Origin: Paludibacteraceae bacterium
Lineage (GTDB): Bacteria; Bacteroidota; Bacteroidia; Bacteroidales; Paludibacteraceae
Length of the DNA stretch: 47,368 nt
Direction of reading: 5' to 3'
Assembly (NCBI GenBank): GCA_024399575.1
Contig: JAKSNT010000007.1
Span: 1-47,368 of the forward strand
Part shown: positions 4,418 through 29,554 of the stretch, piece by piece
Numbering within the stretch: position 1 is the first letter of the stretch
How the letters are laid out: every line of letters begins with the position of its first letter
The notes under the pieces: model-generated
Seen by the model: only the letters and a program-made list of their open reading frames with translations
What the model was told of the DNA's origin: nothing
The model's database searches: none
Program-made: the position numbers and the translations under genes

Positions 4418-6073
4418 CTATAATACTTTCATTTCACATTTACTGCAATCAAAACCCAACTCGAACTTCCTTCCACTGGAGTTCCTTATCCACAACTTTC
4501 CTCTGTACGAATTTCTCTCTTTCAAGCACATACCGAGTTCGTAACGTATGCAATAGCGGCAACGCATCGACTCTTCAGAAAACACTCTGACGGCATCTGT
4601 CGTGTCATTGTCTGTCATTCGCCTGCCTGCTCTCTTCCTGCACATCTTCTCCCCTACTGCTTTTCGCACCTTTTCGACCATCTCGCGCCTCCATGACGCC
4701 ATCACTGACGCTGGCACGAACCATGGCTTGCTGAATTTAATTTCGATTTCATCGGCTTTGAACTCGGTTTCGCCAAGTCGGCTGAACTGTTCATGCCATG
4801 CCTGAATCACCTTCTCGCCATTCCTACCCTCTTCATGGTTGCATTCCACCGAAAATTCAGTCTGGAATTGTCTCTCCGTTATCCGGAATCCCGTTTCCAC
4901 TTCCTCAATCTCGATTTCGAGACCTATCTTTCGCCTTGGATTAGCCTTTGCCAATACCCTTTCGAACTCTATATCGTTGTTCCTGTATAATTTCACCCCT
5001 TTCTCAGGCAATTTCTCGCATCCGTCAATCTGACAACCTTTCAGTTCGCCATCCTTCGTCACCCAACATACTCCATCGCCATTTCTCAGTTCACTTCTCT
5101 CTTTTATCTCCTCACCCATCGCCTTGCCAGTCACCATGGTACACAACCCTCGCTCACGCTTGCCGCTGAGAAAATACTCGGTTCCACCGCGATAAAACGT
5201 CTTGTGCACGTCAGGCACGAAACCTAATTCAGTCTCGCCAAACGAACTTCTCGACAACCCTCGCTCACTGACAGCCTTGTCGATTATCCGTCGATAATAT
5301 CCAGTTATGTTCTTCACGTAATTTGCATCTTTCAGCCTGCCCTCTATCTTGAACGACCTCACTCCAGCATCAAGCAGCTCGCCTACCCTGCCCGAAGCAT
5401 CGAAATCCTTAAGCGACAAGAGAAACTTTCCTTTCTGCAACACCCTGCCATCCTCGTCAATCAAGTCGTATGGCAAACGGCACATCTGTGCGCATTCCCC
5501 TCTGTTTGCCGACCTTCCGCAGACTCGTTCGCTCAGGTAGCACCTGCCGCTATACGACACGCACAAAGCCCCATGGACAAATGTTTCAATCGTACATGCC
5601 GTATTTTTGCAGATTTCACCGATTTCATCGACCGACAATTCACGAGCGAGAACCATCTGGCTGAACCCCATTCGCTCTAACTCCTTAGCCCTCGCCACGG
5701 TACGTATATCGCATTGGGTCGAGGCATGGAACTCGATATCGTCTGGCAAATCCAGACCCAAAATCCTCACATCCTGCACTATGAAAGCATCAACACCGAC
5801 ATCATGCAATTCGCGTATCAAGCGTTCTGCCTCGATGAATTCATCATCTGTAAGTAACGTATTCACAGTGACATACACTCGTGCGCCATAGTGATGCGCA
5901 TATTCCGTCAATCCTGCAATATCTTCAACCGAATTGCCGGCAGCAGCCCTCGCCCCAAATCTCGCAGCACCGATATATACAGCATCGGCACCAGCATCAA
6001 TAGCCACACGGCCTATATTCGCGCTACGTGCCGGAGAAAGCAACTCCACCCTATTTTGCAACGAGTCCGCCAT
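4418..6073 (-). CDS. U32-family peptidase-like protein (RlhA/TrhP group)
   Basis: The U32 signature is complete (ETFVHGALCVSYSGRCYLS, about residues 160-180), followed by RSANRGECAQMCRLPYDL. The N-terminal half is the U32 barrel (RVELLSPA, GADAVYIGA). The C-terminus carries Cys pairs (CRYC...C and CSKC), a likely metal or Fe-S site as in related proteins. Members once called collagenases are now known in several cases to act in tRNA or rRNA hydroxylation (TrhP, RlhA) or in ubiquinone synthesis; RNA modification is my inference here. I chose the ATG at 6073 (MADSLQNRVELL). It overlaps the SDR gene end by 23 bases, and the ATG at 6112 would add 13 residues not typical of the family. Confidence 0.88.
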   Translation of the reverse strand: MADSLQNRVELLSPARSANIGRVAIDAGADAVYIGAARFGARAAAGNSVEDIAGLTEYAHHYGARVYVTVNTLLTDDEFIEAERLIRELHDVGVDAFIVQDVRILGLDLPDDIEFHASTQCDIRTVARAKELERMGFSQMVLARELSVDEIGEICKNTACTIETFVHGALCVSYSGRCYLSERVCGRSANRGECAQMCRLPYDLIDEDGRVLQKGKFLLSLKDFDASGRVGELLDAGVRSFKIEGRLKDANYVKNITGYYRRIIDKAVSERGLSRSSFGETELGFVPDVHKTFYRGGTEYFLSGKRERGLCTMVTGKAMGEEIKERSELRNGDGVCWVTKDGELKGCQIDGCEKLPEKGVKLYRNNDIEFERVLAKANPRRKIGLEIEIEEVETGFRITERQFQTEFSVECNHEEGRNGEKVIQAWHEQFSRLGETEFKADEIEIKFSKPWFVPASVMASWRREMVEKVRKAVGEKMCRKRAGRRMTDNDTTDAVRVFSEESMRCRYCIRYELGMCLKERNSYRGKLWIRNSSGRKFELGFDCSKCEMKVL

Positions 6074-6821
6074 CGCAAAGGTAATGACCTCCAGTACAAA
6101 AACTTGATGCATCCGACGATAGGAAATACATCAGTTCAGCGACCTCTTCTGGTTTGCCTGCCGAACCACGTACATACAAGGCGTTCTCTTCCTTCCAATA
6201 CTCATCCAAGCTTTTCCCTGTTTGCTTGGCAAATTTATCGAACAAGTTATCAACCAATGGAGTACAGATAGTTCCAGCACATACTGCATTGACTCTGATG
6301 TTTTTAGGGCCGAGATCAATTGACAGGCTTCTGGTAATCTGACCCAACGCACCTTTGGTCATTCCATATACGAAGCTCATTGGTTTTCCAACAAACCACT
6401 GATCCGAAGCATTGATGACAACTGTTCCTCCGCCAGCCTTGATTATCTCAGGGACAGCCTCCCTGAGTGTGTTAACCGTACCATAAATATTGGTCTGAAT
6501 CATCAAATCCATCTCCTCATCCGTGACATCAAGCAATGTGTTGCAACGATGTATCCCTGCATTTGCAATGACGCCATTCAATGCTCCGAATTTTGCGACT
6601 GTCGCCTGTACTGCCCGACGTATATCCTCGCGATTACGAGTATTACCTTTGACAAACAGCAATCTGTCACCACAATCTGCATCTTTGACTAACCGTTCTG
6701 CACACTCTTCGGCAATATCCATAAAACCGACATTCCAACCTTCGTTCAGGAATTTACGTACTGCTGCGGCACCAATTCCCATAGCTCCGCCAGTAATAAA
6801 AACACTTTTCATTTTTCTCAT
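6051..6821 (-). CDS. Short-chain dehydrogenase/reductase (SDR)
   Basis: This is a 256-residue classical SDR with NAD(P) loop TGGAMGIG (about residues 10-17), the NAG motif (VIANAGIH), the catalytic Ser in INASDQW and the Tyr/Lys pair in VYGMTKGAL (about residues 151-156). PG-like and C-terminal DGG motifs (HYLCDGGLVAK) complete it. It should be an NAD(P)-dependent alcohol or sugar dehydrogenase, but the substrate cannot be told. It is the first gene of the minus-strand operon. The ATG at 6821 is followed three codons later by a second Met (MKSVFITGG) that could also serve. It is divergent from the lipoprotein gene at 6938. Confidence 0.93.
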   Translation of the reverse strand: MRKMKSVFITGGAMGIGAAAVRKFLNEGWNVGFMDIAEECAERLVKDADCGDRLLFVKGNTRNREDIRRAVQATVAKFGALNGVIANAGIHRCNTLLDVTDEEMDLMIQTNIYGTVNTLREAVPEIIKAGGGTVVINASDQWFVGKPMSFVYGMTKGALGQITRSLSIDLGPKNIRVNAVCAGTICTPLVDNLFDKFAKQTGKSLDEYWKEENALYVRGSAGKPEEVAELMYFLSSDASSFCTGGHYLCDGGLVAK

Positions 6822-6834
6822 AATTTAATCGCTG

Positions 6835-6842
6835 CAAAATTA
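6835..6842 (-). promoter_or_regulatory. Candidate -7 box for the SDR-alaS operon
   Basis: Read on the minus strand the bases are TAATTTTG, matching the Bacteroidetes TAnnTTTG -7 element, 13 bases before the SDR start. No clear TTG -33 element is seen at the usual spacing, and the short leader makes this a tentative call. Confidence 0.4.
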
Positions 6843-6889
6843 CAAAAAAAAATTGTATAATAATGTGTTTTCATTCGAAATATTTTTAC

Positions 6890-6897
6890 TAACTTTG
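6890..6897 (+). promoter_or_regulatory. Candidate -7 box for the lipoprotein gene
   Basis: TAACTTTG matches the Bacteroidetes TAnnTTTG -7 box, 40 bases upstream of the lipoprotein ATG. Upstream there is a T-rich GTTTTC stretch rather than a clear TTG. Its position supports the start at 6938 rather than an ATG inside the promoter region. Confidence 0.55.
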
Positions 6898-6937
6898 CAA
6901 AGTGTTAGAATATGAAATAAATCAACAATTGAACAAT

Positions 6938-7663
6938 ATGAAAAAGACTCTATTTTTCCTGAGCGCAATCATCGTTATTGCCTTGTCAGCATGCCAACCT
7001 AAGAATCCTGCTGAAAACAAACAGGATGATGATAAACCAGTAGTCGAATCGCCCGTAAAGTTCGAATATCCAGAAATTACAACGACTTCGATAAAAGTCA
7101 CCATTACGCTCAACGACAGCAAGAAAGATTTCCGCTATATGATAGGAGCAGAGGGTGAACTTGAACCATTCACAGCAATGTTTGGAAGTCTTGAAGGTGT
7201 AATCGATGCATGGGGTGCCGATGGTGAAGGTCAGGAGACCGTCACATTCAACGACCTCAAGCCCAACACCAAGTATATCATGTACGTACTGTTAAATGAT
7301 AAGATATACCCCGACACGACAAACACCCTGTCGTTAGGCGGTACTGGCGAAGCTGTCATTTCGGTCGATGTCACCGAGATTGGCGACACTTTCTGCACGA
7401 CCACCTGTATTCCCAATTCGGAAGTTGCCCTCTATAAATATTTCATCATAAATGCCGATACTGCTAACAAATACGGCGATACCTATGTAGCCGAGATGCT
7501 CAAGGAAGATCCATACGACTTCTACGAAAAACATGTATGGCAATGGCTCTCGCTCGACCCAGAGACAGGTTATATACTCGTTGCCATCGGCAAGAACCTC
7601 AACGACGAATGGGGAGTTCTCTCCAAGAAATCATTCACCACACTGCCCAAAGCTGAGAAGTAA
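6938..7663 (+). CDS. Secreted lipoprotein with fibronectin III-like region, function unknown
   Basis: The 241-residue protein begins with a signal peptide (MKKTLFFLSAIIVIALSAC); LSAC is a lipobox, so Cys19 should carry the lipid. A linker rich in charged residues follows. A region that reads like a fibronectin type III strand set comes next (FEYPEITTTSIKVTITL, then NDLKPNTKYIMYVLL), then a second domain ending in FTTLPKAEK that resembles the start or end of another such repeat. No catalytic motif is visible. It is probably a surface or periplasm-facing lipoprotein. I start at 6938, because earlier in-frame codons give a hydrophilic stretch before the signal peptide. It stands alone, with the AT-rich gap behind it. 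Confidence 0.8.
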   Translation: MKKTLFFLSAIIVIALSACQPKNPAENKQDDDKPVVESPVKFEYPEITTTSIKVTITLNDSKKDFRYMIGAEGELEPFTAMFGSLEGVIDAWGADGEGQETVTFNDLKPNTKYIMYVLLNDKIYPDTTNTLSLGGTGEAVISVDVTEIGDTFCTTTCIPNSEVALYKYFIINADTANKYGDTYVAEMLKEDPYDFYEKHVWQWLSLDPETGYILVAIGKNLNDEWGVLSKKSFTTLPKAEK

Positions 7664-7900
7664 CTAAATAGTGTTCACTGAATAAAAGACTATATTTCAA
7701 TAAATTCAATGTACAATTAATAAGTTTTTCCGAGACAGTAATGATGATAATAATCAGTTAACATCCGAATAGCATCCTATAACATTGAATATCTGTTCAT
7801 TAGAAGAAAAATGTTAACTTGTTAACTGTTAACTCAACTGATTTTGCATTTTGCAACTCGCGTTTTTGACTTTGCAAGAACCATTGCTTCTGCTTTTTTC

Positions 7901-7924
7901 TATAGTCTTTCCCTAAAGACTATA
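7901..7924. other. Small perfect hairpin (10-bp stem, CCCT loop)
   Basis: TATAGTCTTT at 7901-7910 pairs with AAAGACTATA at 7915-7924 around a CCCT loop. It lies inside the larger inverted repeat and 237 bases after the lipoprotein stop. That is far for a terminator of that gene, and no T-run follows. Confidence 0.6.
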
Positions 7925-7940
7925 TATCAATACTATGTTA

Positions 7941-7980
7941 TTATATTATTATATTATTATATTATTAATTAATTAATTTA
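7941..7980. repeat. AT-only tandem repeats at the centre of the dyad
   Basis: Three exact copies of the 8-mer TTATATTA (7941-7964) are followed by three copies of TTAA (7965-7976) and more A/T sequence to about 7995. The tract is easily melted DNA in the middle of the GTTAAC array. Replication slippage would make its length variable between strains. Confidence 0.85.
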
Positions 7981-8242
7981 TAATATATTATATATCGTGC
8001 GCGATACTCAATATTATTTATTTAGATTTACATCAGAAGATGAATAGTGAAGTATGTTATGTGCAAAAAATTGCGAGTTAACAGTTAACAAGTTAACATT
8101 TTATCATCTACTTGCTGATTATCAGTATATTAATGCACAAATAACGTTAACTGCCATTTAACATCGAATTAACATCACCTTTCTGTAGAGACAAAAAACA
8201 TCCACCTAACGCTCGACCAATGTTCAAAATTCGGGACATCTG

Positions 8243-8273
8243 TTGCATAGGTCAGGGGAAAGTCGTACCTTTG
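8243..8273 (+). promoter_or_regulatory. Promoter of the HU-like regulator gene
   Basis: TTG at 8243-8245, then exactly 20 bases, then TACCTTTG at 8266-8273, is a near-ideal Bacteroidetes promoter. Transcription should start near 8280, giving a leader of roughly 75 bases that contains the 21-bp tandem repeats. This supports the ATG at 8357 over the upstream in-frame ATG at 8243, which lies in the -33 element. Confidence 0.8.
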
Positions 8274-8299
8274 CAGCGCAATTCCTCATCATCCTAAAC

Positions 8300-8350
8300 C
8301 TTGAAACCATCGTACCAAACTTTGAAACCATCGTACCAAACTTTGAAACT
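8300..8350 (+). repeat. 21-bp tandem repeat in the leader of the HU-like gene
   Basis: Two copies of a 21-base unit (8300-8320 and 8321-8341, differing at one base) plus a 9-base partial third copy (8342-8350) end 6 bases before the start codon. The unit core is TTGAAACCATCGTACCAAAC. It lies downstream of the -7 box, so it is probably transcribed. Confidence 0.85.
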
Positions 8351-8356
8351 AACACT

Positions 8357-8980
8357 ATGCTTAACTATCACATTCAAGAACTGCCAAGCCTGCAGCAAGA
8401 CTCAGAAGAGACAGTCTTTCCGAAACTCGACTCCTACAGCCAGTTCGGCAACAAGAAGATGATCAAGCGCATCGCCATGGAAGCTGGAGTCAATGAAGGT
8501 GTCGTAATGGCCACTCTCGATGCTCTGCCTCATGCACTGAAAAACATCCTGCTCGAAGGACACACCTGCAAGATTGACGGACTTGGAACCTTCTCTCTAT
8601 CATTAGCCTTTGAGGCAAAAACCGACGAAGAGGAAACGAGTGAACCGAACCACCGGAAAGTAATGATAAACCGTCTGAACCTCAAAGTGGATTCTGCCTT
8701 CTTGAGGGAACTTCGCAAAGAGGCTCAATTCGTCAGGAACGACAGCCGTATTGTTGCCGTACGCCCATCAAAGGGACATCTTGAAGAGCACCTCTGCCTC
8801 GCCATTAAATGGTTTGACACTCATCAGATGCTAACTCTCCAAGAATATGCCAACATGACAGGGGTATCTCGCTCCACAGCCTCCCGGGAACTCAAACAGA
8901 TTACCGACAATCCCAATTCAGGCATCTCCACACAAGGTCAAGGCAACCGCAAGGTATGGGTGAGGGCGTTTTTAGATTGA
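8357..8980 (+). CDS. HU-like DNA-binding protein with C-terminal winged-helix region
   Basis: The 207-residue product has an HU/IHF-like region (KKMIKRIAMEAGVNEGVVMA, then GHTCKIDGLGTFSLSL, about residues 35-85), as in the HU-HIG proteins common in Bacteroidetes. A C-terminal segment is predicted to form a helix-turn-helix (LQEYANMTGVSRSTASRELK), ending in a basic, glycine-containing wing (GQGNRKVWVRAF). It should bind DNA as a nucleoid protein or local regulator. Upstream lie the GTTAAC array, a consensus promoter and 21-bp tandem repeats, so the protein may bind these sites (inference). It stops just where a reading-frame remnant of an ATPase-like protein begins. Confidence 0.85.
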   Translation: MLNYHIQELPSLQQDSEETVFPKLDSYSQFGNKKMIKRIAMEAGVNEGVVMATLDALPHALKNILLEGHTCKIDGLGTFSLSLAFEAKTDEEETSEPNHRKVMINRLNLKVDSAFLRELRKEAQFVRNDSRIVAVRPSKGHLEEHLCLAIKWFDTHQMLTLQEYANMTGVSRSTASRELKQITDNPNSGISTQGQGNRKVWVRAFLD

Positions 8981-9090
8981 TGTCATCAAGCTCTGTCCTG
9001 GCAACTATACGTGGATTGCTTGACAAGGATTTTGTCACCATGGAACAAGGTACATATTCCCTCTGCGACCTTTTTCTGGAATATTTGCTA
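8980..9090 (+). pseudogene. Fragment resembling the C-terminus of an ATPase_2-type AAA ATPase
   Basis: In the frame starting at 8980 the bases read SSSSVLATIRGLLDKDFVTM, then a G-T-Y-S-L-C-D-L-F-L-E-Y-L-L end. This closely resembles the C-terminal winged-helix part of Bacteroidetes/archaeal-type AAA ATPases, where a typical pattern is SSVQSALKxLLEKDLV....GVYSVYDxFFxxWL. The Walker A and B parts are missing. The fragment begins at the stop of the HU-like gene and ends 4 bases before the stop of the convergent oxidase gene. I read it as debris of a deleted ATPase gene, possibly with its 5' part removed by the event that placed the HU-like gene here. Confidence 0.55.
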
Positions 9091-9094
9091 TCCG

Positions 9095-11926
9095 CTAAAC
9101 CATCAATTCGATTGGATGTTTCGCTTTTCTACCCGTTCCATCGTAAATCTGCGCACGACATGATGTTCCGGGTGCGGCAATGACGGTTCTACCATCTGCA
9201 GACCTCACTGCCTTGAACAGCACACTCTCGCCTATCTCCATCGAACGTTCGTAATGCTCATAGCCGTACGACCCTGCCATTCCGCAACAGCCACTCGGTA
9301 TTATCTCACATTCATAGCCAACGCTTTCCAACATCTTTCGGGTCTTCGTCTGGTCGCCAAGTGCCTTCTGGTGACAATGTCCGTGAAGCAGCACCTTGCC
9401 TTCGTGTTTCCCAAATACCGAAGGGTCTATCCTACCCTCTTCAACCTCCCTGACGTACCACTCGTCGTACAACATCACGTTGTCCAGTATATTGTCATAG
9501 CCTTCACCGAGAAGTGACCTGTATTCGTCCCTGAAACTCAAAACCGCTGAGGGTTCAAGTCCTACCAATGGCATTTTCATGTCTATCAGACCATGCAATG
9601 CCCTCACATTCTCCTCTGCCAGCTGTCTCGCCTTACGAACCATACCTTTGCTCAATGCAGTACGTCCGCTGTCCCTGACAGGAGCCAACACCACCTGATA
9701 GCCTGCCCTTTCTGCCATACAGACAAATGACTGCCCGACCTTGACATCCTGAAATTCGGTGAATTCATCGACAAGCAGGCAGACTTTCTTGTCGGATTTT
9801 GCACTCACATCCCTTCTACCGAACCATTCTCTGAAACTCTCGCTACACATCAACGGCAGTTTCCTTTTCCCCGAAAATCCCATCACCAACGATGCAATAC
9901 CGCTGCCCGCACCAAAATTGTATGCCCAGGGTGCAACCTTGCTGAACAAAGACTGTATCTCAGGCAAATTACCAATAAGCCATTTACGCAAAGGAACACC
10001 ATGACAGTCGTAATAGTGCTGCAAATATTCAGCTTTCAATGTCGTCATGTCAACCGAAGATGGACACTCTCGTTTGCAAGCCTTGCAACTCAGACACTCT
10101 TCCAATGCCTCAAGTACATCCTTATCGTCAAATTTGCCTGATTTCATCGCATATCGCAACAGGTTCGCCCTTGCTCTCGTTGTTGAAGTCTCGTCGCCTG
10201 TCGCACGAAACGCAGGACACATCACACCACCGAACAGCTGGCTCTTCCTGCAATCCGCAGCACCATTGCATTGCTCGATTGCCCTGACGTAATGTTTCAG
10301 TTTCCTTCCATGCTGGAAAGTGAAATAGCTCGGACCTTCAGGTTCGGTGAATACATAACGCATGAAGTCGTTCATCGGAGGAGTGTTGACTATCTTGCCT
10401 TTGTTGAAAATGCCCTTTGAATCGAATATTCGTTTGGTCTCGCAGAACCATTTATAAACCGTTTCACCATACATCAACGGGATAAATTCGCCCCTCAATC
10501 TTCCATCGCCATGCTCGCCACTGAGCGACCCACGGTATTTTCTGACCAGCAATGCCGTCCGGTACGCAACCTCACGGAACAATTTCCTACCCTCCTCGGT
10601 CTTGAGGTTCATCACAGGCCGCAGATGCAATTCGCCAGTCCCTATATGTGCATAATAGACGCATTCCAAGCCAAGTTCCCTGAGCATCGCCTTGAAATCG
10701 GCAATATATTCACCCAACAGCTCGGGCACAACGGCAGTATCCTCAACGACAGGAGCAGGTTTCGAATCGCCCTCCATTCCTCCGAGCAACCCAAGTCCGG
10801 CTTTACGAAGTGCCCACACACGCTGTATGTCCTTCCCCCTCAGTCGTGGAAAAGCGTAACAGCCTGGCATCTTGCGCAATTCAGCCTCCAGTCGGTTCAA
10901 CCGGTCTTCGAGTTCTTCCTCAGTATCGCAGGCAAATTCGGCAACGAGCAGACCTGCCGGCATTCCTTCAAGAAAGAATCCGTTTTCCCTTTGTGCCATG
11001 TTTTTCTTGCTGAGTTCGAGTATTTTATCGTCAATCAGTTCGATAGCCGTCGCTCCGAAACGTCTCGCCACGAGGTTAGCATCAAACACTACTTCCATAG
11101 TCTTGCAATGCACGCACATCACGGCATTATGCTTCGGTGGCAGGTCGTCAAGAGCAAGTTTCAACTCCGTGATGAAAGCCAAAGTTCCTTCCGAGCCACA
11201 CAATATCTTACATAAATCAATCGAGCCATCCGCCTCACGGACAAGGTCGAGCGCATACCCATTGTTGCGTCTGCCGAGTCTTTCGTCAGGGAATCTGTCA
11301 CGTATTTCATCTTGTGTCTCATTCTTGCGCAACAAGGTTTCAAGATACTGATAGATTGAGCCTTCAAGGCCACCTCTGGCAATAATTGCCTGCACCTCAT
11401 CGCTGTTTTTCCTGCTGAACGTAGTGACACTTCCATCTGCCAGCACCACACGTGCCTCAATCAGATGGTCGCGCACAGAGCCATATCTGAGCGAATGAGT
11501 GCCGCAGGAGTTGTTTCCGACCATTCCACCGACCATACATCTATTGGAAGTAGATGTCTCGGGCGAAAAGAACAGTCCATACTGTTTCAATGCAATATTG
11601 AGTTCGTCCCTCACCACTCCAGGCTGCACACGCACCCATTTCTCGTCACGATTGATTTCGATAATCCTGTTGAAGTGTCTGCTGATATCGACCACAACAC
11701 CAGTGCCAACCACCTGACCTGCAATAGATGTGCCTGCCGCACGCGGGATAAGAGTCTTTCCATTTGCACCAGCCCATCTGACTACAGACACAACGTCCTC
11801 CTCATCGCATGGGAAAACCACACCTTCAGGCATCTCGGCAAATGCCGATGCATCAGTGGAATAGACTATTCTGGTCATATTGTCGGCAGCGACTTCGCCA
11901 CGTACGATGTCTTTCAATCTTTCCAT
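9095..11926 (-). CDS. FAD-binding and Fe-S oxidase (D-lactate/glycolate dehydrogenase-like fusion)
   Basis: This 943-residue protein joins three parts. The N-terminal FAD_binding_4 domain (LIPRAAGTSIAGQVVGTGVV and MVGGMVGNNSCGTHSLRYG) and the FAD-oxidase C-terminal domain (AHIGTGELHLRP, SGEHGDGRLRGEF) make up the first two. The third is an Fe-S half with CLSCKACKRECP (about residues 609-620), an earlier Cys group (C-x5-C, MCP) and a CCG-type box (SGCCGMAGSYGYE, about residue 878). This layout is that of GlcD-GlcF-like fusions that oxidise D-lactate or other 2-hydroxy acids and pass electrons to the quinone pool; the exact substrate is not shown. It overlaps the end of the flippase gene by 13 bases and is the last gene of the rng operon. 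Confidence 0.92.
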   Translation of the reverse strand: MERLKDIVRGEVAADNMTRIVYSTDASAFAEMPEGVVFPCDEEDVVSVVRWAGANGKTLIPRAAGTSIAGQVVGTGVVVDISRHFNRIIEINRDEKWVRVQPGVVRDELNIALKQYGLFFSPETSTSNRCMVGGMVGNNSCGTHSLRYGSVRDHLIEARVVLADGSVTTFSRKNSDEVQAIIARGGLEGSIYQYLETLLRKNETQDEIRDRFPDERLGRRNNGYALDLVREADGSIDLCKILCGSEGTLAFITELKLALDDLPPKHNAVMCVHCKTMEVVFDANLVARRFGATAIELIDDKILELSKKNMAQRENGFFLEGMPAGLLVAEFACDTEEELEDRLNRLEAELRKMPGCYAFPRLRGKDIQRVWALRKAGLGLLGGMEGDSKPAPVVEDTAVVPELLGEYIADFKAMLRELGLECVYYAHIGTGELHLRPVMNLKTEEGRKLFREVAYRTALLVRKYRGSLSGEHGDGRLRGEFIPLMYGETVYKWFCETKRIFDSKGIFNKGKIVNTPPMNDFMRYVFTEPEGPSYFTFQHGRKLKHYVRAIEQCNGAADCRKSQLFGGVMCPAFRATGDETSTTRARANLLRYAMKSGKFDDKDVLEALEECLSCKACKRECPSSVDMTTLKAEYLQHYYDCHGVPLRKWLIGNLPEIQSLFSKVAPWAYNFGAGSGIASLVMGFSGKRKLPLMCSESFREWFGRRDVSAKSDKKVCLLVDEFTEFQDVKVGQSFVCMAERAGYQVVLAPVRDSGRTALSKGMVRKARQLAEENVRALHGLIDMKMPLVGLEPSAVLSFRDEYRSLLGEGYDNILDNVMLYDEWYVREVEEGRIDPSVFGKHEGKVLLHGHCHQKALGDQTKTRKMLESVGYECEIIPSGCCGMAGSYGYEHYERSMEIGESVLFKAVRSADGRTVIAAPGTSCRAQIYDGTGRKAKHPIELMV

Positions 11927-13278
11927 AATTCTCTAATTACGCATAAAGGCCATTTCCAGTTCTGGTATGCCGCCTGGGCAATGGTTGGCGCCAACACCAT
12001 ACCCCAGACTCCCATTCCAAGCCAAACCACAAACACTATAAGCAATACCAACGTAACTGCAGCTGAAATCAACGACGCCTTAAAAAAGGGCACTTCGTTT
12101 TTCGACAACAGAAAATCAGCTGAATTTGTATGATTCACCTCAAGTAAATTCTGCAACATCATGACAGCCAAGACCCAACCAGTGATGAGTGAAGTATTGC
12201 TGTGCATAATAGTAACCAATGCCCAATTACCGAGAAATTCAATCATTACCCATCCAAGGATATATGAAGTTACTATCACGACTGTCGATTTCACAAATAT
12301 TTCCCTCAACTTGTTGATATCGTTTGTCACCCTCCATTCGAAAAGCTTAGGTGTATAGACACGCGTGACCACCGTAGATACCCTTGAAAGGACAATAACC
12401 AGTTGCAATGTTATGCCAAAGGAAGCCATTTCTGCCAATGAGAGATACTCAGAGCCGACAAACGTTCCTGACCTGGTGATAATTATTCCTCCGAGACCTG
12501 TCAGTCCAACCTTGACAGCATTCGGCGAAATGGTACGAAATACGAGATTCATCTCCTGCCTGCCTACTTTTTCAGTTCCAAGATACATCTTGATTTCCTT
12601 AGTATAAAATGCCTTATGCGACAACAAACGCATTATGACTATAGAAAGGAACTGAGCACCGATTATGGCTATCAAACCGTAACCGAGATACACGAAAACA
12701 ATCGCAAGAACGAGATACGAAAGGTTGCTGACAACTATAATCTTGCTGTTCTTTTCAATCAATCCCCTGCCGACAAGCAAAGCCTGATAGTATAGAGAAT
12801 ACAGATTCCAACACATGAACACAACCAATACAGCCCACGATATCCAAACTTCGCTCACATCACCATGATACTTATCGACAAGCGTCCCCATATACCAGCT
12901 TCCCACCGTAGCCAGCAACAGAAACAATATCGCTGACATTATCAAATAGTACCGTTTCATCGACGATATCACACATTTCATCAGATTCCAGTCCACATGA
13001 TCATCATCAACCGCTTCAGGCAGAGTCTCACACCCATTGACTTTCAGCTTGTGAACCCCACTGAACACATAACCAATATTTCTCGCAAACGAATCATTGA
13101 ACCCAAAATCAAGCAAGGCAACCAACATCTGAACTGTCGTAAATACAGTCCAAATTCCAGTTGCCTCGTCCGTCAATCTGCTTAAAACAAAAGGATACAA
13201 CAGAACTCCTGTCCCTACCTTCAAAATCATCGAAACGACTCCCCAGGTCATATCCCTTCTGCCTATTCGTTCAATCAT
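11914..13278 (-). CDS. Wzx-type polysaccharide flippase-like membrane protein
   Basis: The 454-residue protein is strongly hydrophobic, with about 12 predicted membrane segments. It begins like oligosaccharide flippases and MOP/MATE-fold exporters (WGVVSMILKVGTGVLLYPFV, then TGIWTVF). Members move undecaprenyl-linked sugars across the inner membrane. A hydrophilic stretch near residues 70-95 (VNGCETLPEAVDDDHVDWN) is a cytoplasmic loop. The gene starts 3 bases after the stop of the WecA-like transferase gene, so the transferase that loads the lipid carrier and this flippase probably work in one glycan pathway. The specific glycan cannot be told. Confidence 0.85.
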   Translation of the reverse strand: MIERIGRRDMTWGVVSMILKVGTGVLLYPFVLSRLTDEATGIWTVFTTVQMLVALLDFGFNDSFARNIGYVFSGVHKLKVNGCETLPEAVDDDHVDWNLMKCVISSMKRYYLIMSAILFLLLATVGSWYMGTLVDKYHGDVSEVWISWAVLVVFMCWNLYSLYYQALLVGRGLIEKNSKIIVVSNLSYLVLAIVFVYLGYGLIAIIGAQFLSIVIMRLLSHKAFYTKEIKMYLGTEKVGRQEMNLVFRTISPNAVKVGLTGLGGIIITRSGTFVGSEYLSLAEMASFGITLQLVIVLSRVSTVVTRVYTPKLFEWRVTNDINKLREIFVKSTVVIVTSYILGWVMIEFLGNWALVTIMHSNTSLITGWVLAVMMLQNLLEVNHTNSADFLLSKNEVPFFKASLISAAVTLVLLIVFVVWLGMGVWGMVLAPTIAQAAYQNWKWPLCVIRELWKD

Positions 13279-13281
13279 CGG

Positions 13282-14202
13282 TCATGTACAATAAATATCA
13301 TAAATCACAATTGGAATGGCATTAGCCATCACAATCAGCAACGTTGCCTTCCAATGTGGCAACCCTTTATCAATCAATATATGATGAAGATGCCTGCGGT
13401 CAGCCTTGAATGGCGATTCATGGTTTATGATTCTCATCAATGCCACTCGCACCATATCAATAACCGGCAACGACAAGCAACACAACACCTTGAAAGACAC
13501 ATCAACATATTTCATTGTCCACTCTGCGAATCCGCACGAATCGTCAACCACAAAATCCATTTTCAGCAGACCTACTGCCAGCAAAAAGCCAATTGACAAC
13601 GTTCCCCCGTCCCCGAGAAAAACCTTCCATCTGTCCTGAAACATATTGAATATCAAAAGCACTATCGCGATACCAAGCATTGAACCAAGTACTGAAGCAG
13701 ACAAACATACTGCACAACTCAGACTCAAAGTCAGCAATATACCTAAAGCCAGTCCATCAATACCATCAATGAGGTTATAGGCATTGATTATTGTCAACAT
13801 TATCAATACACCAACCGCCATAGACAGATGAACAGAACGCGAAACGACAATCATATATGCCGAACAGACAACTATCTCAATCACCAGTTTCACAAAAGCA
13901 GGTATATCCCTCACATCATCAATCATCCCCACAACAGCCATCACTGCTACACATATAAAAGACATATTAACCCTTATCATTTCCGAGAACTGCAATTCCG
14001 TATGCAATGACCAGAATAATATATTGGCAACTGCATATATGAACATAACCATGCCGCCAACATTTGGAACAGTGCCAATATGAGACGAACGAGCGTTTTC
14101 GTTCGACACCATGCCTATCCTAAATGCTATTACCCGCAACATAGGCAACATCAATAAAGTAGCAGAGATGCCAATCAGAAATGACAGAAGATAATATATC
14201 AT
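13282..14202 (-). CDS. WecA/MraY-family undecaprenyl-phosphate sugar-1-phosphate transferase
   Basis: The 306-residue, many-helix membrane protein carries the family's marks: MIDDVRDIP (about residue 93, Mg2+ site), the NAYNLIDGIDGLA motif, FLGDGGTLSIGF and the C-terminal RRHLHHILID (the HIHH-like loop typical of WecA/TagO rather than MraY). It should transfer a sugar-1-phosphate from UDP-sugar to undecaprenyl phosphate on the cytoplasmic face, starting a cell-surface glycan. There are 3 bases between its stop and the flippase start, and 1 base between it and rng. GlcNAc is the commonest substrate in the family, but the sugar is not shown here. Confidence 0.92.
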   Translation of the reverse strand: MIYYLLSFLIGISATLLMLPMLRVIAFRIGMVSNENARSSHIGTVPNVGGMVMFIYAVANILFWSLHTELQFSEMIRVNMSFICVAVMAVVGMIDDVRDIPAFVKLVIEIVVCSAYMIVVSRSVHLSMAVGVLIMLTIINAYNLIDGIDGLALGILLTLSLSCAVCLSASVLGSMLGIAIVLLIFNMFQDRWKVFLGDGGTLSIGFLLAVGLLKMDFVVDDSCGFAEWTMKYVDVSFKVLCCLSLPVIDMVRVALMRIINHESPFKADRRHLHHILIDKGLPHWKATLLIVMANAIPIVIYDIYCT

Positions 14203-14203
14203 A

Positions 14204-15787
14204 TCAACGTACGTTTACGATATTCGCTATTGCCTTGAAATTTATCTCATCTCCACTCCTGTCGTAGATATGATACTCCAGGATGCCGAGAGCCTGTCGT
14301 GAATTGACGGACACATGCACACCATATTGCAACATCCACCTCAATCGCGTACTGATAAAACCCTTCCTGATGAAAGCAGCCACGTATGGATGAACCTCAA
14401 GCCTTATCCAATGATAATGCAGCATGTGGTTAGCCAACTCAACCTTCTCCTCAATCTCATCAACAAGCAATATGGATGCCCTCGAATGTCCAGTGCCACC
14501 ACATGTAGGGCAAACCTCTTCGGTCTGTATCTCAAGTGCCGGACGAACACGCTGGCGTGTTATCTGCATAAGACCAAACTTACTCAATGGCAATATGTTA
14601 TGCTTTGCCCTATCCTTATTCATAAGCAAAAGCATGTGTTCATACAATTTCTGTCTGTTTGAAGGATCGTCCAAATCAATGAAATCAATAACTATGATTC
14701 CGCCAATATCACGAAGCCGCAACTGCCGTGCAATCTCCTCAGCAGCAGCCATATCCACTTCAAACGATATCTCCTCAGGCGACAAATCGCCCTTCATTTT
14801 CGACCCACTATTTACGTCAATGACGTGCATAGCCTCGGTCTTGTCAATTATCAGATATGCACCTCGTTTGAATGAAACTGTTCTGCTGAACAGAGACTTT
14901 ATGTTTTTTTCTATTCCGAAATGTTCGAATATAGGAGTCGAGTCACGATATGGCTTGACACACGAAACCCGTTCTGGTGCAATCAGCTCAACGTATGAAT
15001 ATACATCACTTAATATCACATCGTTATCGACATATACTGCAGAATATTCGGGTGTAAAGAGATCGCGGAGAATAGAAACCACGCGAGATGATTCCTGGTA
15101 TAACTGTGTATGGACATCGGCTTTCTTGAGATTATCCAGAATCTTTAGCCAACGCTTTTCCATAGTACGAATTTCAGATTCCAATTCCGCATTCTGCTTT
15201 CCTTCAGCAAGTGTGCGGATAATGATTCCATACCATTTCTGTTTGATAGACGAGACTATCTTACGAAGTCTGGAACGTTCCGAGTTCTGCTTTATTTTCT
15301 GCGAAACAGATACCTTGTCATTGAGTGGAATCATGACGAGGTTGCGACCAGCTATGCTGATTTCGCCTGTAAGCCTCGGGCCTTTTGTATTTATCGGTTC
15401 CTTGATTATCTGAACCATTATCAATTCACCGACTTTCAAAACATCCTGAATATTTCCATCTTTTTCCAATTGTCTATCTGATGGCGATGGAGTGAATGCT
15501 GGTTTAATATGCTGTCTGTCGTTAAGACAATTATGGACGAAATGGTTGAATGCAGGAAAATTATCCCCGAGGTCGTGATAATGCACAAAAGCCTCACGTT
15601 CAGAACCAATGTCAATGAATGCTGCATTTAGTCCTGGCATGATACGTTTCACACGCCCGAGATATATGTCGCCAACCTGGTATTTGCTGTCCATCGAGTC
15701 ATGATGCAGCTCGACCAAAACGTCATCTTCCATAATGGCTATAGTCAGGAGGCGGTCATTTACACTTATTATCAGTTCTTTTTTCAT
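14204..15787 (-). CDS. rng: Ribonuclease G/E family endoribonuclease
   Basis: This 527-residue enzyme cuts single-stranded A/U-rich RNA and helps mature 16S rRNA. It has an N-terminal S1 domain (YLGRVKRIMPGLNAAFIDIG), split as usual in Bacteroidetes by an insertion of about 50 residues. The catalytic DNase I-like region follows (MHVIDVNSGS and GGIIVIDFIDL, the Mg2+ Asp pair), then the zinc link (EVCPTCGGTGHS). The length fits RNase G rather than the longer RNase E. It leads a minus-strand run with the glycosyl-1-phosphate transferase, flippase and oxidase. A terminator for the HU/bTHX unit lies just upstream at 15807-15846. Confidence 0.95.
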   Translation of the reverse strand: MKKELIISVNDRLLTIAIMEDDVLVELHHDSMDSKYQVGDIYLGRVKRIMPGLNAAFIDIGSEREAFVHYHDLGDNFPAFNHFVHNCLNDRQHIKPAFTPSPSDRQLEKDGNIQDVLKVGELIMVQIIKEPINTKGPRLTGEISIAGRNLVMIPLNDKVSVSQKIKQNSERSRLRKIVSSIKQKWYGIIIRTLAEGKQNAELESEIRTMEKRWLKILDNLKKADVHTQLYQESSRVVSILRDLFTPEYSAVYVDNDVILSDVYSYVELIAPERVSCVKPYRDSTPIFEHFGIEKNIKSLFSRTVSFKRGAYLIIDKTEAMHVIDVNSGSKMKGDLSPEEISFEVDMAAAEEIARQLRLRDIGGIIVIDFIDLDDPSNRQKLYEHMLLLMNKDRAKHNILPLSKFGLMQITRQRVRPALEIQTEEVCPTCGGTGHSRASILLVDEIEEKVELANHMLHYHWIRLEVHPYVAAFIRKGFISTRLRWMLQYGVHVSVNSRQALGILEYHIYDRSGDEINFKAIANIVNVR

Positions 15788-15806
15788 ATTACTGCTCTAT
15801 ACAGTG

Positions 15807-15846
15807 AAAAAAACAAATAAAAGCAAATTCGATATGAATCTGCTTT
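15807..15846 (-). terminator. Rho-independent terminator after bTHX
   Basis: On the minus strand an 11-bp stem (15846-15836 with 15830-15820, one G-T pair, 5-base loop) is followed by a T-rich run (complement of the A-rich 15807-15819). It lies 24 bases after the bTHX stop and before rng. It should end most HU-bTHX transcripts, with some read-through into rng possible. Confidence 0.75.
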
Positions 15847-15869
15847 CATTTAATCACGAAGACCGTAAT

Positions 15870-15962
15870 TTACTTTTTCTTCTTATGACGGTCCTTTCTC
15901 AGTCTTTTTTTACGCTTGTGCGTTGACATCTTATGTCTTTTTCTTTTCTTACCACTTGGCAT
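15870..15962 (-). CDS. Small ribosomal protein bTHX, 30 residues
   Basis: A 30-codon gene encodes a very basic peptide beginning MPSGKKRKRHKMSTHKRKKR, with a K/R/H-rich rest and ending in four Lys. This matches the bTHX (Thx) protein of the 30S subunit found in Bacteroidetes and Thermus, where it sits in the head of the small subunit and stabilises rRNA helices. The gene is so short that ORF calls easily miss it. It lies 38 bases downstream of HU on the same strand and is followed by a terminator, so HU and bTHX form a small unit. Confidence 0.85.
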   Translation of the reverse strand: MPSGKKRKRHKMSTHKRKKRLRKDRHKKKK

Positions 15963-16000
15963 AACACAAAAATTTAAAAAGTTAATTACTCAGATTCTGA

Positions 16001-16273
16001 TCACTTAACCTGACCCATGAACTCTTTCGATGGTTTGAAAGCAGGGATATTGTGCTCAGGGATAGTGATAGTTGTGTTCTTCGAAATGTTGCGAGCTGTT
16101 TTCTCAGCACGTTTCTTAACGATAAAGCTACCGAAACCACGGAGATAAACATTCTCACCCTTAGCCAAAGAACCCTTTACAGACTCCATGAAAGCCTCAA
16201 CAGTGTTCAAAACAACTTCTTTGTTGACACCTGTGGTCTTTGCAATCTCATTTACTACTTCTGCTTTTGTCAT
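16001..16273 (-). CDS. HU-family nucleoid DNA-binding protein
   Basis: The 90-residue protein has exactly the family length, with the N-terminal helices (MTKAEVVNEIAKTTGVNKEVV), the GENVYLRGFGSFIVKKR turn and the DNA-gripping arm (ARNISKNTTITIPEHNIPAFKPS). The conserved Pro at the arm tip is in TIPEHN, and PAFKPSKEF is the usual C-terminus. It bends DNA non-specifically as a homodimer in the nucleoid. It has its own near-consensus promoter at 16350-16380 and is divergent from ssb. Confidence 0.97.
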   Translation of the reverse strand: MTKAEVVNEIAKTTGVNKEVVLNTVEAFMESVKGSLAKGENVYLRGFGSFIVKKRAEKTARNISKNTTITIPEHNIPAFKPSKEFMGQVK

Positions 16274-16349
16274 AATTGTATAATTTAAATTTTGATTATC
16301 TTTTATTCATTTTGAACGCAAGTACATTTTTCTCAACAGAAATCGGCTG

Positions 16350-16380
16350 CAAAGGTAGTCATTTTTTTGTTATCACACAA
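16350..16380 (-). promoter_or_regulatory. Promoter of the HU-bTHX unit
   Basis: On the minus strand TTG (16380-16378), then exactly 20 bases, then TACCTTTG (16357-16350), fits the Bacteroidetes consensus. The ATG is 77 bases downstream of the -7 box. The ssb promoter lies back to back with it in the same 253-base gap, so the two may influence each other. Confidence 0.8.
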
Positions 16381-16436
16381 CAATTTGTGCTTTTTTTTCA
16401 AAAAAAATTTTTTATTGATTTTTTTCATAAAATATA

Positions 16437-16468
16437 TTTGTTCATATCAAAAATTATTTGTTACTTTG
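16437..16468 (+). promoter_or_regulatory. Promoter of ssb
   Basis: TTTG at 16437-16440, 20 bases, then TTACTTTG at 16461-16468. The -7 box differs from TAnnTTTG at one base. The start codon is 58 bases downstream. Confidence 0.7.
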
Positions 16469-16526
16469 CAGTCGCGATTTAAAACCGTTTTATTATTTAT
16501 TTATACATTATTAAAAATTAAAGGTT

Positions 16527-17000
16527 ATGGCTTCAGTAAACAAAGTTATCCTTATCGGCAACGTAGGAAAAGAACCAGATGTACGTTATCTCGAAAACGA
16601 TGTACGCGTTGCAAGTTTCCCATTGGCTACTACAGAACGTGGCTACACAATGTCTAACGGGACTCAGGTCCCAGACCGCACAGAATGGCACACCATTGTC
16701 GTTTGGCGCAATCTTGCTGAAATAGCAGAAAAATACATTCATAAAAGCACAAGACTATATGTCGAAGGCAAGTTGAGAACTCGGTCATACGAAAACCCCA
16801 CGACTGGTGTGCGCCGTTACATCACTGAAGTTTATGCTGAAAACATTCAGTTCTTAAGCTCAGTTCAGCAGAATCAACAGCAGCCAGCTCAAACTGCAAC
16901 TCAAGGCGTTCCTGCACAACAGGTCGCAGTTGAGCCTGAAGTTCCTGCAATGCCTGAAACAGATCAGACTTCAGTCGAGAATACAAATCTCGAATTCTGA
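16527..17000 (+). CDS. ssb: Single-stranded DNA-binding protein
   Basis: This is a 157-residue SSB. The OB fold occupies about residues 1-112 (MASVNKVILIGNVGKEPDVR; RTEWHTIVVWRNLAEIAEKY; STRLYVEGKLRTRSY). A Q/P/V-rich flexible tail follows, then the C-terminal tip. It coats single-stranded DNA in replication and repair. The last residues are NTNLEF, whereas most bacterial SSBs end in an acidic tip with a final Pro-Phe that recruits partner proteins; here the penultimate residue is Glu. It is the first gene of the plus-strand block, and a 12-bp hairpin 17 bases past its stop probably ends part of the transcripts before gldE. Confidence 0.97.
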   Translation: MASVNKVILIGNVGKEPDVRYLENDVRVASFPLATTERGYTMSNGTQVPDRTEWHTIVVWRNLAEIAEKYIHKSTRLYVEGKLRTRSYENPTTGVRRYITEVYAENIQFLSSVQQNQQQPAQTATQGVPAQQVAVEPEVPAMPETDQTSVENTNLEF

Positions 17001-17017
17001 CAGATATTGACCGTTTT

Positions 17018-17057
17018 ATATGGAGACACTGACATCTTTGGGGTTGTGTCTCCATAT
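17018..17057 (+). terminator. Hairpin terminator after ssb
   Basis: ATATGGAGACAC at 17018-17029 pairs perfectly with 17046-17057 (12 bp, 16-base loop), followed by TTATATTAG. The hairpin lies between the ssb stop and the gldE start. The T-run is weak, so partial termination, or control of ssb against gldE levels, is possible. Confidence 0.65.
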
Positions 17058-17076
17058 TTATATTAGTATAATAGAA

Positions 17077-18324
17077 ATGATTCCGCTCATAATATTGACA
17101 ATACTACTTCTTGTAGCCTCTTCTTTGGCATCAGGTTCAGAAGTGGCTTTCTTTTCTTTAGAGCCAAAGGACAAAGACGAAATGGAGGAAAGCGATTCGC
17201 TGGCTGACCATCAAATAAAAGAACTGCTGAAAAAACCTCAGAATCTCCTTGCCACAATCCTCATAACCAACAACTTCGTCAATGTCGCCGTAATCGTCAT
17301 TTCATCAATAATCATCAACAAAGCATTTGATTTCTCGGATTCACCTATCATAGGATTTATTGTCGAGACTATCCTGATTACATTTCTCATACTCTTGGTT
17401 GGCGAAATAATCCCCAAGATATACGCACGCCAACATGCCCTCACAACCTGCCGCAATGCAGCTCCGATAATGTGCCTGCTCATGATTATCATGAAACCTT
17501 TCGCATACATTCTCGTTCATTCCACTTCGTTCATCGACAAAAAAATAGAGAAGTACAGACACAACACCCTATCTATGGACGAGTTGTCGCATGCTCTCGA
17601 ACTGACCGAAGAAAGCATCAACGAAGACAAGGACATACTCCAAGGCATAGTGAAATTCGGTTCACAGACTGCAGCAAGCGTCATGACACCACGAATGGAT
17701 ATGATTACACTGCAATCAAATGATTCTTTCGAGAAAGTGATTGACTGCATCAACGAACATGAATATTCCCGTATCCCCGTAATGAACGGGACTTACGACA
17801 ACATACGCGGCATACTGTATGCCAAAGACCTCATTCCTTTCATTGGAAAACCTGCTACATTCAAATGGCAGACACTCATACGCCAGGCACATTTCGTACC
17901 TGAGACAAAGAAAATAGATGACCTGCTGCAGGAATTCCAGAAAGAACGCGTACACATGGCGATTGTGGTTGACGAATTTGGCGGAACTTCAGGACTTGTC
18001 ACTCTTGAAGATGTGCTGGAAGAGGTGGTCGGAGATATAAGTGACGAATACGACCAGGACACAAAGATGTACAAGGTTCTTGACAAGAACTCATATATCT
18101 TTGAAGCCAAGATTTCGCTTGCCGACCTCATACGTGCCACTGATATCGATGATGAAATATTCGACGACACCGAAGATGCCGACACCCTTGCAGGACTGAT
18201 TCTCGAAATAAAAGGCGAGTTTCCAGCACTGAACGAGCACATCACTTACAAAAACCTTGATTTCGAAATTTTAGAAGCAGACGCTCGCCGAATAAACAAA
18301 GTAAAACTGGCAATTCAAAGATGA
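17077..18324 (+). CDS. gldE: GldE-like CNNM/CorC-family membrane protein
   Basis: The 415-residue protein has an N-terminal CNNM (DUF21) membrane domain with about four helices ([49 protein letters not shown]). Two CBS domains follow ([29 protein letters not shown]) and a CorC_HlyC transporter-associated domain ends it. GldE is needed for gliding and type 9 secretion in Flavobacterium and is widely kept in non-gliding Bacteroidetes; a role with GldD in envelope or ion homeostasis is inference. I chose the ATG at 17077, because the in-frame ATG at 17020 lies in the ssb terminator stem. gldD follows 4 bases later, a conserved pair. Confidence 0.88.
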
Positions 18325-18328
18325 TCCT

Positions 18329-18910
18329 ATGAAGCGATACACAATATGTATATTATCATGTGTGTTTCTGTTCTGCAGTTGCGGAGAAGACCCACAGCCA
18401 AAGCCATACGCATATTTCCGCATTGCGCTACCTCCAGTTGACTACAACAATGTAGATACCCTCGGTCCATATATCGCAGATGTCAACATGAACTGTATCA
18501 CGAATAATGCAGACTCGCATTATTCCACACCAAACGACAAATGGATCAACATCTCATATCCTGCTCTCAACGCAACAGTACATCTCAGTTACAAACACAT
18601 TTCGCCTTCCGACATCCAGACTGTCACCGAAGAGAGCCGTACGCTGGTCTATAAACACACCATACGTGCAGATGCCATCCGCGAAAGTTATTATGAAAAC
18701 TCTGACAGACACGTCTATTGCATGTTCTATGAACTTACTGGCAATGCTGCTTCGCCAACCCAGTTCTTCGTAACTGACTCAGCAACCAACTTTCTCCGTG
18801 GCTCGGTGTATTTCAACAACATACCAAACTACGACTCGGTGATGCCATGTGCCAAATACATAGAAAACGACTTGGTGCACTTTGTCGAAACACTTAAATG
18901 GAAAAACTAA
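18329..18910 (+). CDS. gldD: GldD-like lipoprotein
   Basis: The 193-residue protein starts with a lipoprotein signal (MKRYTICILSCVFLFCSCGED; the Cys in FCSC is the likely lipid site). It then shows the GldD pattern PKPYAYFRIALP, with INISYPALNATVHLSY and FYELTGNAASPTQFFVTDS in the body. In Flavobacterium GldD is a membrane lipoprotein required for gliding; relatives occur in most Bacteroidetes without gliding. It starts 4 bases after gldE and is followed 9 bases later by the phosphopantetheinyl transferase, the conserved ssb-gldE-gldD-pptase order. Confidence 0.88.
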   Translation: MKRYTICILSCVFLFCSCGEDPQPKPYAYFRIALPPVDYNNVDTLGPYIADVNMNCITNNADSHYSTPNDKWINISYPALNATVHLSYKHISPSDIQTVTEESRTLVYKHTIRADAIRESYYENSDRHVYCMFYELTGNAASPTQFFVTDSATNFLRGSVYFNNIPNYDSVMPCAKYIENDLVHFVETLKWKN

Positions 18911-18919
18911 TACACATAT

Positions 18920-19549
18920 ATGATTATTGAACAAAAAACTTTTGAAGATGGTTCCTCCTTCGCCTTATGGGAGGTTACCGAAGAGCCTGACGGACTTCTG
19001 GAAATGCTCGACAACGACCCATTCGTCATTGAAAAAATTTCCTCATTCACGAGCATCAAACGCAAATGCGAATTTCTCGCTTCGCGCTGTACCCTAAACT
19101 CGGTCACAGGCGAAAAAAACACAATAAGCTACAAGGAAACTGGTAAACCATTTGTTGAAGGCAAGAATCTAAACATCTCAATATCTCACACAGGCAACTG
19201 GGTGACAATACTCACTCACCCAGAACGCAATGTCGGCATTGACATCGAACGTCTGACTGACAAACTCGTTCGTGTCAAAACCAAATTCCTGTCAGACACT
19301 GAACTATCGTTTATCGATTCCCGTAACGAGAAACCTCAGCTTGCCATTATGTGGGCAGCCAAAGAGGCTTTATACAAACTGATTGACTTACCTGGTCTTG
19401 ACCCTGTGAACGACCTTCACATTGACAAGTTCACTCCTTATCTCGAAGGTAAAATCACAGCTACCGAGACCAAGACTGCTGACAGACATAGTTATACACT
19501 CCATTATCTGGTTCGCCCAGAGTATGTACTTGTACGTGTTGTAGAATGA
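18920..19549 (+). CDS. 4'-phosphopantetheinyl transferase, Sfp-like
   Basis: The 209-residue enzyme moves the phosphopantetheine arm of CoA onto a serine of carrier proteins. It shows [14 protein letters not shown] (CoA and Mg2+ region), [11 protein letters not shown] (the Mg2+-binding G-I-D-x-E) and [11 protein letters not shown] (W-x-x-K-E-A-x-x-K). It has the two-domain Sfp length rather than the short AcpS length. The carrier protein it serves is not in this window; no polyketide or peptide synthetase gene is near, so fatty-acid ACP or an unlinked system is likely. Its stop overlaps the nfo start (ATGA). Confidence 0.92.
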
Positions 19550-20391
19550 AATACATAGGCGCTCACATATCAGCTTCAGGTGGTGTGGAAAATGCTCCAG
19601 TCAACGCCAATGCCATAGGTGCGACTGCTTTTGCCATGTTCACCAAAAACCAGAGGCAATGGTTTTCAGCACCTCTCACTGATGAATCCATAGCGTTGTT
19701 CCACCAGAGAATGAATGATTCAGGATATACTGCAGACCAAGTGTTGTCTCACGACAGCTACCTAATAAATCTCGGGTCGCCCGACCCTGAAGGTCTCGAA
19801 AAAAGCCGCAAGTCATTCATCGACGAAATGAAACGTTGTCATCTTCTCGGATTGAACCGACTCAACTTCCACCCAGGTTCACACCTCAAGAAGTGCACCG
19901 AGGAACAATGTCTCGACACTATCGCCGAAAGCATAAACATAGCCTTGGCAGAGACAGAAGGAGTCACTGCAGTACTCGAAAACACTGCAGGACAGGGAAG
20001 CAACATGGGTTACCGTTTTGAGCAACTCCGCTACATCATCGACCGCATCACCGACAAGAGCCGCATAGGTGTCTGCATTGACACACAGCATGCTTTTGCA
20101 TCAGGCTACGACATTTCGACGGCTGATGGATTCAAAGACACATGGGAACATTTCGACGAGGTCATAGGATTCAGTTATCTACGTGGAATGCACCTCAACG
20201 ATTCAATGAAAGCCTGTGCCTCTCGTGTCGATCGTCATGACTCTATCGGGAAAGGACTGATTGGTACTGATTGTTTCGAGTGGATAATCAAGGATTCAAG
20301 ATTCGACAACATTCCGCTCATTCTCGAAACACCAGACGAGAGCCTGTGGGCAGACGAAATCAACTGGTTGAAAAAACAAATAATAAAATGA
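19546..20391 (+). CDS. nfo: Endonuclease IV (AP endonuclease)
   Basis: The 281-residue enzyme cuts DNA 5' of abasic sites in base-excision repair. Family motifs are complete: GAHISASGG at the start, [44 protein letters not shown] and [20 protein letters not shown], which supply the His, Glu and Asp ligands of the trinuclear zinc site, and LETPDE at the end. It overlaps the transferase upstream by 4 bases and the S9 peptidase downstream by 4 bases, so the genes should be translationally coupled. Confidence 0.97.
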
Positions 20392-22490: not shown

Positions 22491-22528
22491 ATCCAACTGA
22501 ACATATAGAAGACTTAATAACAAATACT

Positions 22529-23640: not shown

Positions 23641-23656
23641 ACAAACAGAAAAAAAT

Positions 23657-25503: not shown

Positions 25504-25529
25504 CGCTCGCATGAATATATGACAAACTG

Positions 25530-29540: not shown

Positions 29541-29554
29541 ATCAGTAAGACGTA

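Follow-up and report, generated by a model that had tools for sequence, protein, structure and literature searches.

Architecture of the array and the adjoining gene

The window, which is to say the whole stretch of 47,368 nucleotides that was analysed, constitutes the entire contig C67 of its draft genome (G000; 1.66 Mb, 75 contigs, 86% complete), and every genome with which it was compared is likewise a draft. The feature of interest is an intergenic array of eight GTTAAC sites within 395 bases, starting at 7757, 7813, 7821 and 7828 on the left and at 8077, 8084, 8092 and 8146 on the right, and located upstream of a gene of the HU-HIG family (Table 1). A previous sequence-only reading had described these sites as two halves of nearly equal spacing, mirrored around an AT-only core, and this is indeed what is found, since the steps are 56, 8 and 7 bases in the left half and 7, 8 and 54 in the right, the mirror centre lies near 7954 and the centre contains three copies of TTATATTA as well as three of TTAA. 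The total number of GTTAAC sites in the window is ordinary (10 found, 8.98 expected). Their clustering is nonetheless beyond chance, as the densest 395 bases never held more than four sites when 200 windows were simulated at the AT-rich composition found locally, four being reached in one of the 200 and one or two being usual, and the 1.66-Mb draft genome holds no further GTTAAC-N0-4-GTTAAC pair.

Six of the eight sites form two heptad arrays, of which the left reads AATGTTAACTTGTTAACTGTTAACTC and the right is its exact complement, while the remaining two are outlying. The two arms are perfectly complementary across 28 nt and 85% complementary across 41 nt, and with a score of 28 the array is well separated from the runner-up inverted repeat, which scored 18, in 367 kb of the same genome (loops of 60-450 nt). 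Folding of positions 7806-8103 as single-stranded DNA gave z = -8.4 relative to shuffles, and a hairpin is accordingly a predicted property of the element when single-stranded. The element gave no match to Rfam up to E 1.

The neighbouring gene product is a member of the HU-HIG family by profile, and its AlphaFold2 model (pLDDT 87.7, pTM 0.53) has a predicted HU fold and a predicted winged helix, the nearest solved structure found being 4fmr (TM 0.42, 14% identity). A phage origin of the gene was considered and rejected, because the protein has no match among phage records and just two remote matches to viral contigs (26-27% identity over residues 33-105). Directly before its start codon are three 21-bp direct repeats, and the closest relative, G005, has two readable units similar to these in the corresponding position. 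Further upstream lies TACCTTTG, which we take to be a candidate -7 promoter box from the Bacteroidetes consensus; its surrounding sequence has matches in many parts of the genome. The end of the gene is overlapped by an ORF at 8956-9183, which has no Pfam match and by eye resembles the terminal part of an ATPase gene.

Table 1. Coordinates of the features discussed, in the window unless a locus (L) is named
Feature	Position	Strand	Remarks
Block of array and nearly entire HU-HIG gene	7745..8964	+	83% nucleotide identity to G005 C56:3722-4896; both flanks differ
Left outlying GTTAAC, outside arms	7757..7762	+	Kept in G005 (alignment)
Inverted-repeat element, copy of dispersed family	7808..8102	.	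28-nt perfect arms; other-genus profile match 7805-8102, E 1.1e-6
Left arm, three GTTAACT-type heptads, steps 8 and 7	7808..7835	+	
AT-only run of centre, 58 nt	7938..7995	.	
CGTGCGCG word (CGCG-type) in centre	7996..8003	.	
Right arm, exact complement of left arm	8075..8102	-	
Right outlying GTTAAC, outside arms	8146..8151	+	Kept in G005 (alignment)
TACCTTTG, candidate -7 promoter box of HU-HIG gene	8266..8273	+	From sequence
Three 21-bp direct repeats, CATCGTACCAAACTTTGAAAC type	8287..8349	+	
HU-HIG gene, 207 aa	8357..8980	+	PF18291, 59.7 bits (cut-off 26.2)
dnaA	37886-39340		
RAYT-like proteins	L205:2250-3446, L210:3616-4848, L211:2745-3740, L163:9270-10424		
Mirror arrays of G331/G332	L233:2300-2600, L237:2230-2560		
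WYL regulator and GmrSD-type gene	L218, L165		L165 by weak PADLOC matches
Restriction enzyme and C5 methylase	L207		
PD-(D/E)XK nuclease	L219		
Schlafen-AlbA_2 gene	L034		

Proposed replication origin

The sequence-only reading took the array for a multi-protein DNA site, possibly an origin or a centromere, and of this proposal the symmetric multi-site architecture is real while the origin or centromere part finds no support. Symmetric sites, an AT-only run and an adjoining gene for a DNA-binding protein would suit a replication origin, a centromere or a plasmid origin, and the presence of dnaA in the same window speaks for it too, as does the circumstance that oriC of Bacteroidetes is reportedly often far from dnaA (PMC4755523). 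However, the cumulative GC skew has its minimum at 21.7 kb and not at 7.9 kb (in what is a 47-kb draft contig and not a closed chromosome), the genome carries two copies of the array at unrelated loci, and the location is not conserved in G005. Furthermore, the window holds 15 words with at most one mismatch to TTATCCACA, the DnaA box word of E. coli, all of them more than 2 kb away from the array. On the strength of the DnaA-box words, the local skew and the two genome copies we rejected oriC, and a plasmid origin was rejected since there is no plasmid match, which leaves this whole group of explanations highly improbable. A symmetric AT-rich array need not be an origin, even when it shares a window with dnaA. 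As a separate observation, the skew minimum and dnaA both fall within 20000-39340, and an origin might therefore lie nearby, with no cluster of DnaA-box words found there when the same E. coli word is used.

Array and gene in the closest relative

In G005, contig C19 is collinear with the window across 5175-7671 and 9083-20511, but the intervening 7672-9082 is replaced by 6.1 kb of other genes. The array is nevertheless present in this genome, as part of a 1.2-kb block that also contains nearly all of the HU-HIG gene and is found on a contig (C56) other than that of the conserved flanking genes, the homology stopping inside the last codons of the gene. A close relative in which the flanking genes persist but the array is missing had been named beforehand as grounds for refuting the proposed multi-protein site, as had many scattered copies with features of mobile elements, and we find the former in C19 and the latter among the scattered copies of relatives described below, in each case at least in part. 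The G005 copy has an intact left arm and an altered right one (GTTAACATTTAACAATTTAAC), so perfect symmetry is not needed for the block to persist. That the moved block includes a gene and not the hairpin alone counts against reading the array as a mobile repeat, and so does the result that neither an empty counterpart of the insertion nor a target-site duplication was observed, no part of C56 having a match in a 320-kb sample of G000.

A dispersed family of inverted repeats

Arrays of this kind are not confined to the window. A total of 21 copies was read in 13 genomes, each with a CGCG/AT-rich centre between inverted arrays of GTTAAxy heptads and in unrelated gene contexts; their collection combined pattern searches with selection by eye, a procedure that misses differently worded copies. 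In the source genome itself TTAAC triplets occur at two places only, namely the window array and contig C75, where a diverged second copy forms an inverted pair 231 bp apart upstream of a different HU-HIG gene. In G146, which belongs to another genus, a fourth element accompanies three triplet pairs that are inverted with a separation of about 200 bp. The number of copies per genome is two in G000 and four in G146, with three in G152 and two each in G161 and G028. An alignment of the copies of the window, G005 and C75 with three from G146 shows a common layout, in which a heptad array is followed by inner words, an AT-rich stretch, a CGCG core, a TGCAAAA-like word and finally the inverted heptad array.

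The search pattern GCGCG-N62-90-TTAAC-N2-3-TTAAC has matches in 101 of 358 genomes, a count that gives no estimate of abundance because a reversed control pattern also matched in many of these genomes. Among the matches listed, 14 further copies in ten genomes, whose matched text resembled the family, were picked by eye and used in a profile, which was made from 17 copies of another genus only. This profile nonetheless recovers the window array (Table 1), the C75 copy (E 4.8e-5) and the G005 copy (E 4.7e-11); in 367 kb of G000, with E up to 1, it found just the copies of that genome and their own reverse-strand matches, and it gave zero matches in 1 Mb of simulated sequence.

Similar structures were also seen outside the 21. 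In G004, similar inverted pairs of GTTAACTGTTAACTCG on contigs C45 and C13 were missed by the profile, and the pair on C45 (L035:9320-9800), which has an AT-rich centre, is followed first by AAAAGTTCGGAGT in six direct repeats and then by a DUF4143/AAA_14 gene. A second, partial copy on G146 C71 matches the profile at 34.8 bits, and tandem partial copies with directly oriented heptad arrays occur on G146 C8 (L167:6939-7110) near a Y1-transposase gene. A strong inverted repeat of unrelated sequence is present on G004 C21 (L046:1295-1468; score 30, loop of 114 nt).

The 21 copies are 134-295 nt long, and 20 are clear of ORFs of at least 100 aa, the remaining one overlapping a 103-aa ORF by 6 nt; six are less than 1 kb from a contig end. 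A CGCG-type word is central in all of them, 14 having been preselected by the GCGCG of the pattern and seven not. The heptad differs from copy to copy, being GTTAACT, GTTAAAT, GTTAAAA, GTTAAGT or GTTAATT, and the two arms of a copy nevertheless tend to agree. In a set of 23 (20 profile copies, the G004 C45 pair and two from G146 C71, the partial copy included) the arm-to-arm heptad overlap is 0.60 as against 0.27 for re-dealt arms, a value reached in none of 20,000 re-dealings and yet only indicative because the copies are related. The commonest sixth heptad base is the same in both arms in 16 of the 23, and the arms disagree in L211, L212, L215 and G005, in the latter owing to the right arm. 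The pattern suggests that it is the pairing of the arms that is kept. A repeat family of uncultured Bacteroidetes whose heptad arms vary between copies and tend to match within a copy therefore permits a direct test of arm pairing against the reading of a word by a protein.

An alternative is that the array is a functionless product of slippage, in which tandem heptads arose in AT-rich intergenic DNA and were mirrored by template switching. Heptad arrays with no inverted partner do occur in relatives such as G003, G007 and G127, and heptamer arrays are known elsewhere, Paludibacter included (PMC4679880). Slippage alone would, however, not yield an inner layout that is common to different genera and detectable by a profile, and we consider this explanation improbable.

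Neighbouring genes and a candidate mover

RAYT-like genes start beside three copies (L205, L210 and L211) and 2.3 kb from a fourth (L163), in a raw count with no matched control. Their products have a conserved H-hydrophobic-H motif and a long C-terminal extension and no Pfam match, and three of them score 37, 22 and 20 bits against the NCBI model of REP-associated transposases, for which the cut-off is 80. The Y1-transposase family (Y1_Tnp) appears absent from G000 by a model that also missed the RAYT-like genes seen, and since these had to be found by eye, Y1_Tnp makes a poor census of RAYT genes. Nine Y1-transposase loci in 12 genomes had no full element in the flanks fetched, L222 having a partial match.

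Because the relatives' copies lie between unrelated genes, the repeat is likely a small passive mobile element and not a replication origin. The explanation that we favour, with moderate confidence, is that the window array is a copy of a dispersed intergenic inverted repeat with a predicted hairpin, which is non-autonomous and was probably spread in trans by an HUH transposase of the RAYT-like kind. The single-stranded repeat would fold into a hairpin through its paired heptad arms, the transposase would mobilise it in trans in a REPIN-like manner, and the window copy would have been captured upstream of the HU-HIG–winged-helix gene. The assignment of a RAYT-like enzyme as the probable mover follows from the presence of such genes near four of the 21 copies together with the known pairing of RAYTs and REPINs.

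RAYT genes are indeed known to have REPs on either side, or long inverted repeats that do not have GTAG (PMC3116915, PMC3733652), and the present family resembles REPINs and RAYT-linked repeats in forming extragenic inverted pairs with predicted hairpins, in being multi-copy in some genomes and in sometimes occurring beside RAYT-like genes. The window element fits this picture with its inverted arms and predicted hairpin, and the family does so in being extragenic with several copies per genome. Unlike the single 20-40-bp palindrome of a REPIN, however, the arms here are arrays of 7-8-nt words, and the family has a long CGCG/AT-rich centre and does not carry the GTAG/CGTC tag, as GTAG occurs within 15 nt outside either arm in just four of the 21 copies and CGTC in one. 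Since the tag fails and the RAYT-like partner is a candidate only, we do not file the family as REP or REPIN.

Among Bacteroidetes repeats, the BrickBuilt MITE of Porphyromonas gingivalis is similarly intergenic and multi-copy with inverted ends, and one of its copies adjoins a gene listed as DNA-binding (PF00216), but it is characterized by 23-nt tandem repeats and IS5-like ends and is reported from P. gingivalis and P. gulae only (PMC4596501). Identity with BrickBuilt was rejected, because 7600-8400 contains no 23-nt tandem array and the repeats there are of other kinds. The TAACTGA heptamer repeats of a few Bacteroidetes, including Paludibacter propionicigenes, are likewise intergenic with a 7-nt and near-identical word; they differ from the window in being mostly direct and just before start codons, with only one inverted case reported in the main genome studied (PMC4679880). 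Our literature search, with subscription papers and preprints mostly outside it, found no account of this repeat or of a target site for HU-HIG proteins.

Relation to HU-HIG–winged-helix genes

HU-HIG genes adjoin three of the 21 copies, and these are the copies found in the window's genus, each of which has such a gene downstream. This raises the possibility that the array is the operator of the HU-HIG–winged-helix gene, whose product would putatively bind the heptads of both arms, bend the AT-rich centre, join the arms and so control its own promoter. The sequence-only reading had likewise named this protein as a candidate binder. The predicted HU fold and winged helix of the protein are consistent with such a function, and array and gene are together in G005 despite their different location. 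In the other genus, by contrast, none of 18 copies adjoins an HU-HIG gene (at two of these loci a contig end truncates one flank), and the sole HU-type match near any of them is weak and about 4.5 kb away (L164). It also argues against an operator that the two HU-HIG genes of G000 are strongly different (24%) and yet have related arrays.

Upstream inverted repeats with a score of at least 20 were found at four of six HU-HIG–winged-helix loci as against five of 128 control windows (Fisher 1.4e-4), although the positives (G000, G005, G331 and G332) represent two lineages and not four independent cases, and no repeat of this kind is present in the 800 bp upstream of the gene in G025 and G061. Loci were counted in this comparison if 800 bp upstream were available, so that L235, L259 and L260 (<350 bp) were excluded, and some matches had no locus. 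In G331 and G332, which belong to another genus, the repeat is itself a mirror array, unrelated in sequence to that of the window, in which 22-bp GATGC-type repeats are mirrored across a centre of about four 21-bp palindromic repeats, the two arrays being 72% alike. Taken on both sides, we regard the operator as a tentative but serious alternative, and such reading of the arms by HU-HIG could also be a role that the dispersed repeat has acquired locally. HU-HIG–winged-helix proteins gain an adjoining candidate target.

A further model, which we find rather doubtful, is that every HU-HIG–winged-helix protein has a mirror site of its own and moves with it as a cassette that organises or silences variable, defence-rich loci, while elsewhere the site alone has been spread as a hairpin repeat by RAYT-like enzymes. 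The winged helix would in that model read the repeat word, GTTAAC heptads in the window and the 22-bp GATGC-type repeats in G331 and G332, whereas the HU domain would bend the centre so that the arms are brought together. Defence-type genes, in a raw count with no matched control, are found less than 2.5 kb from five copies (Table 1).
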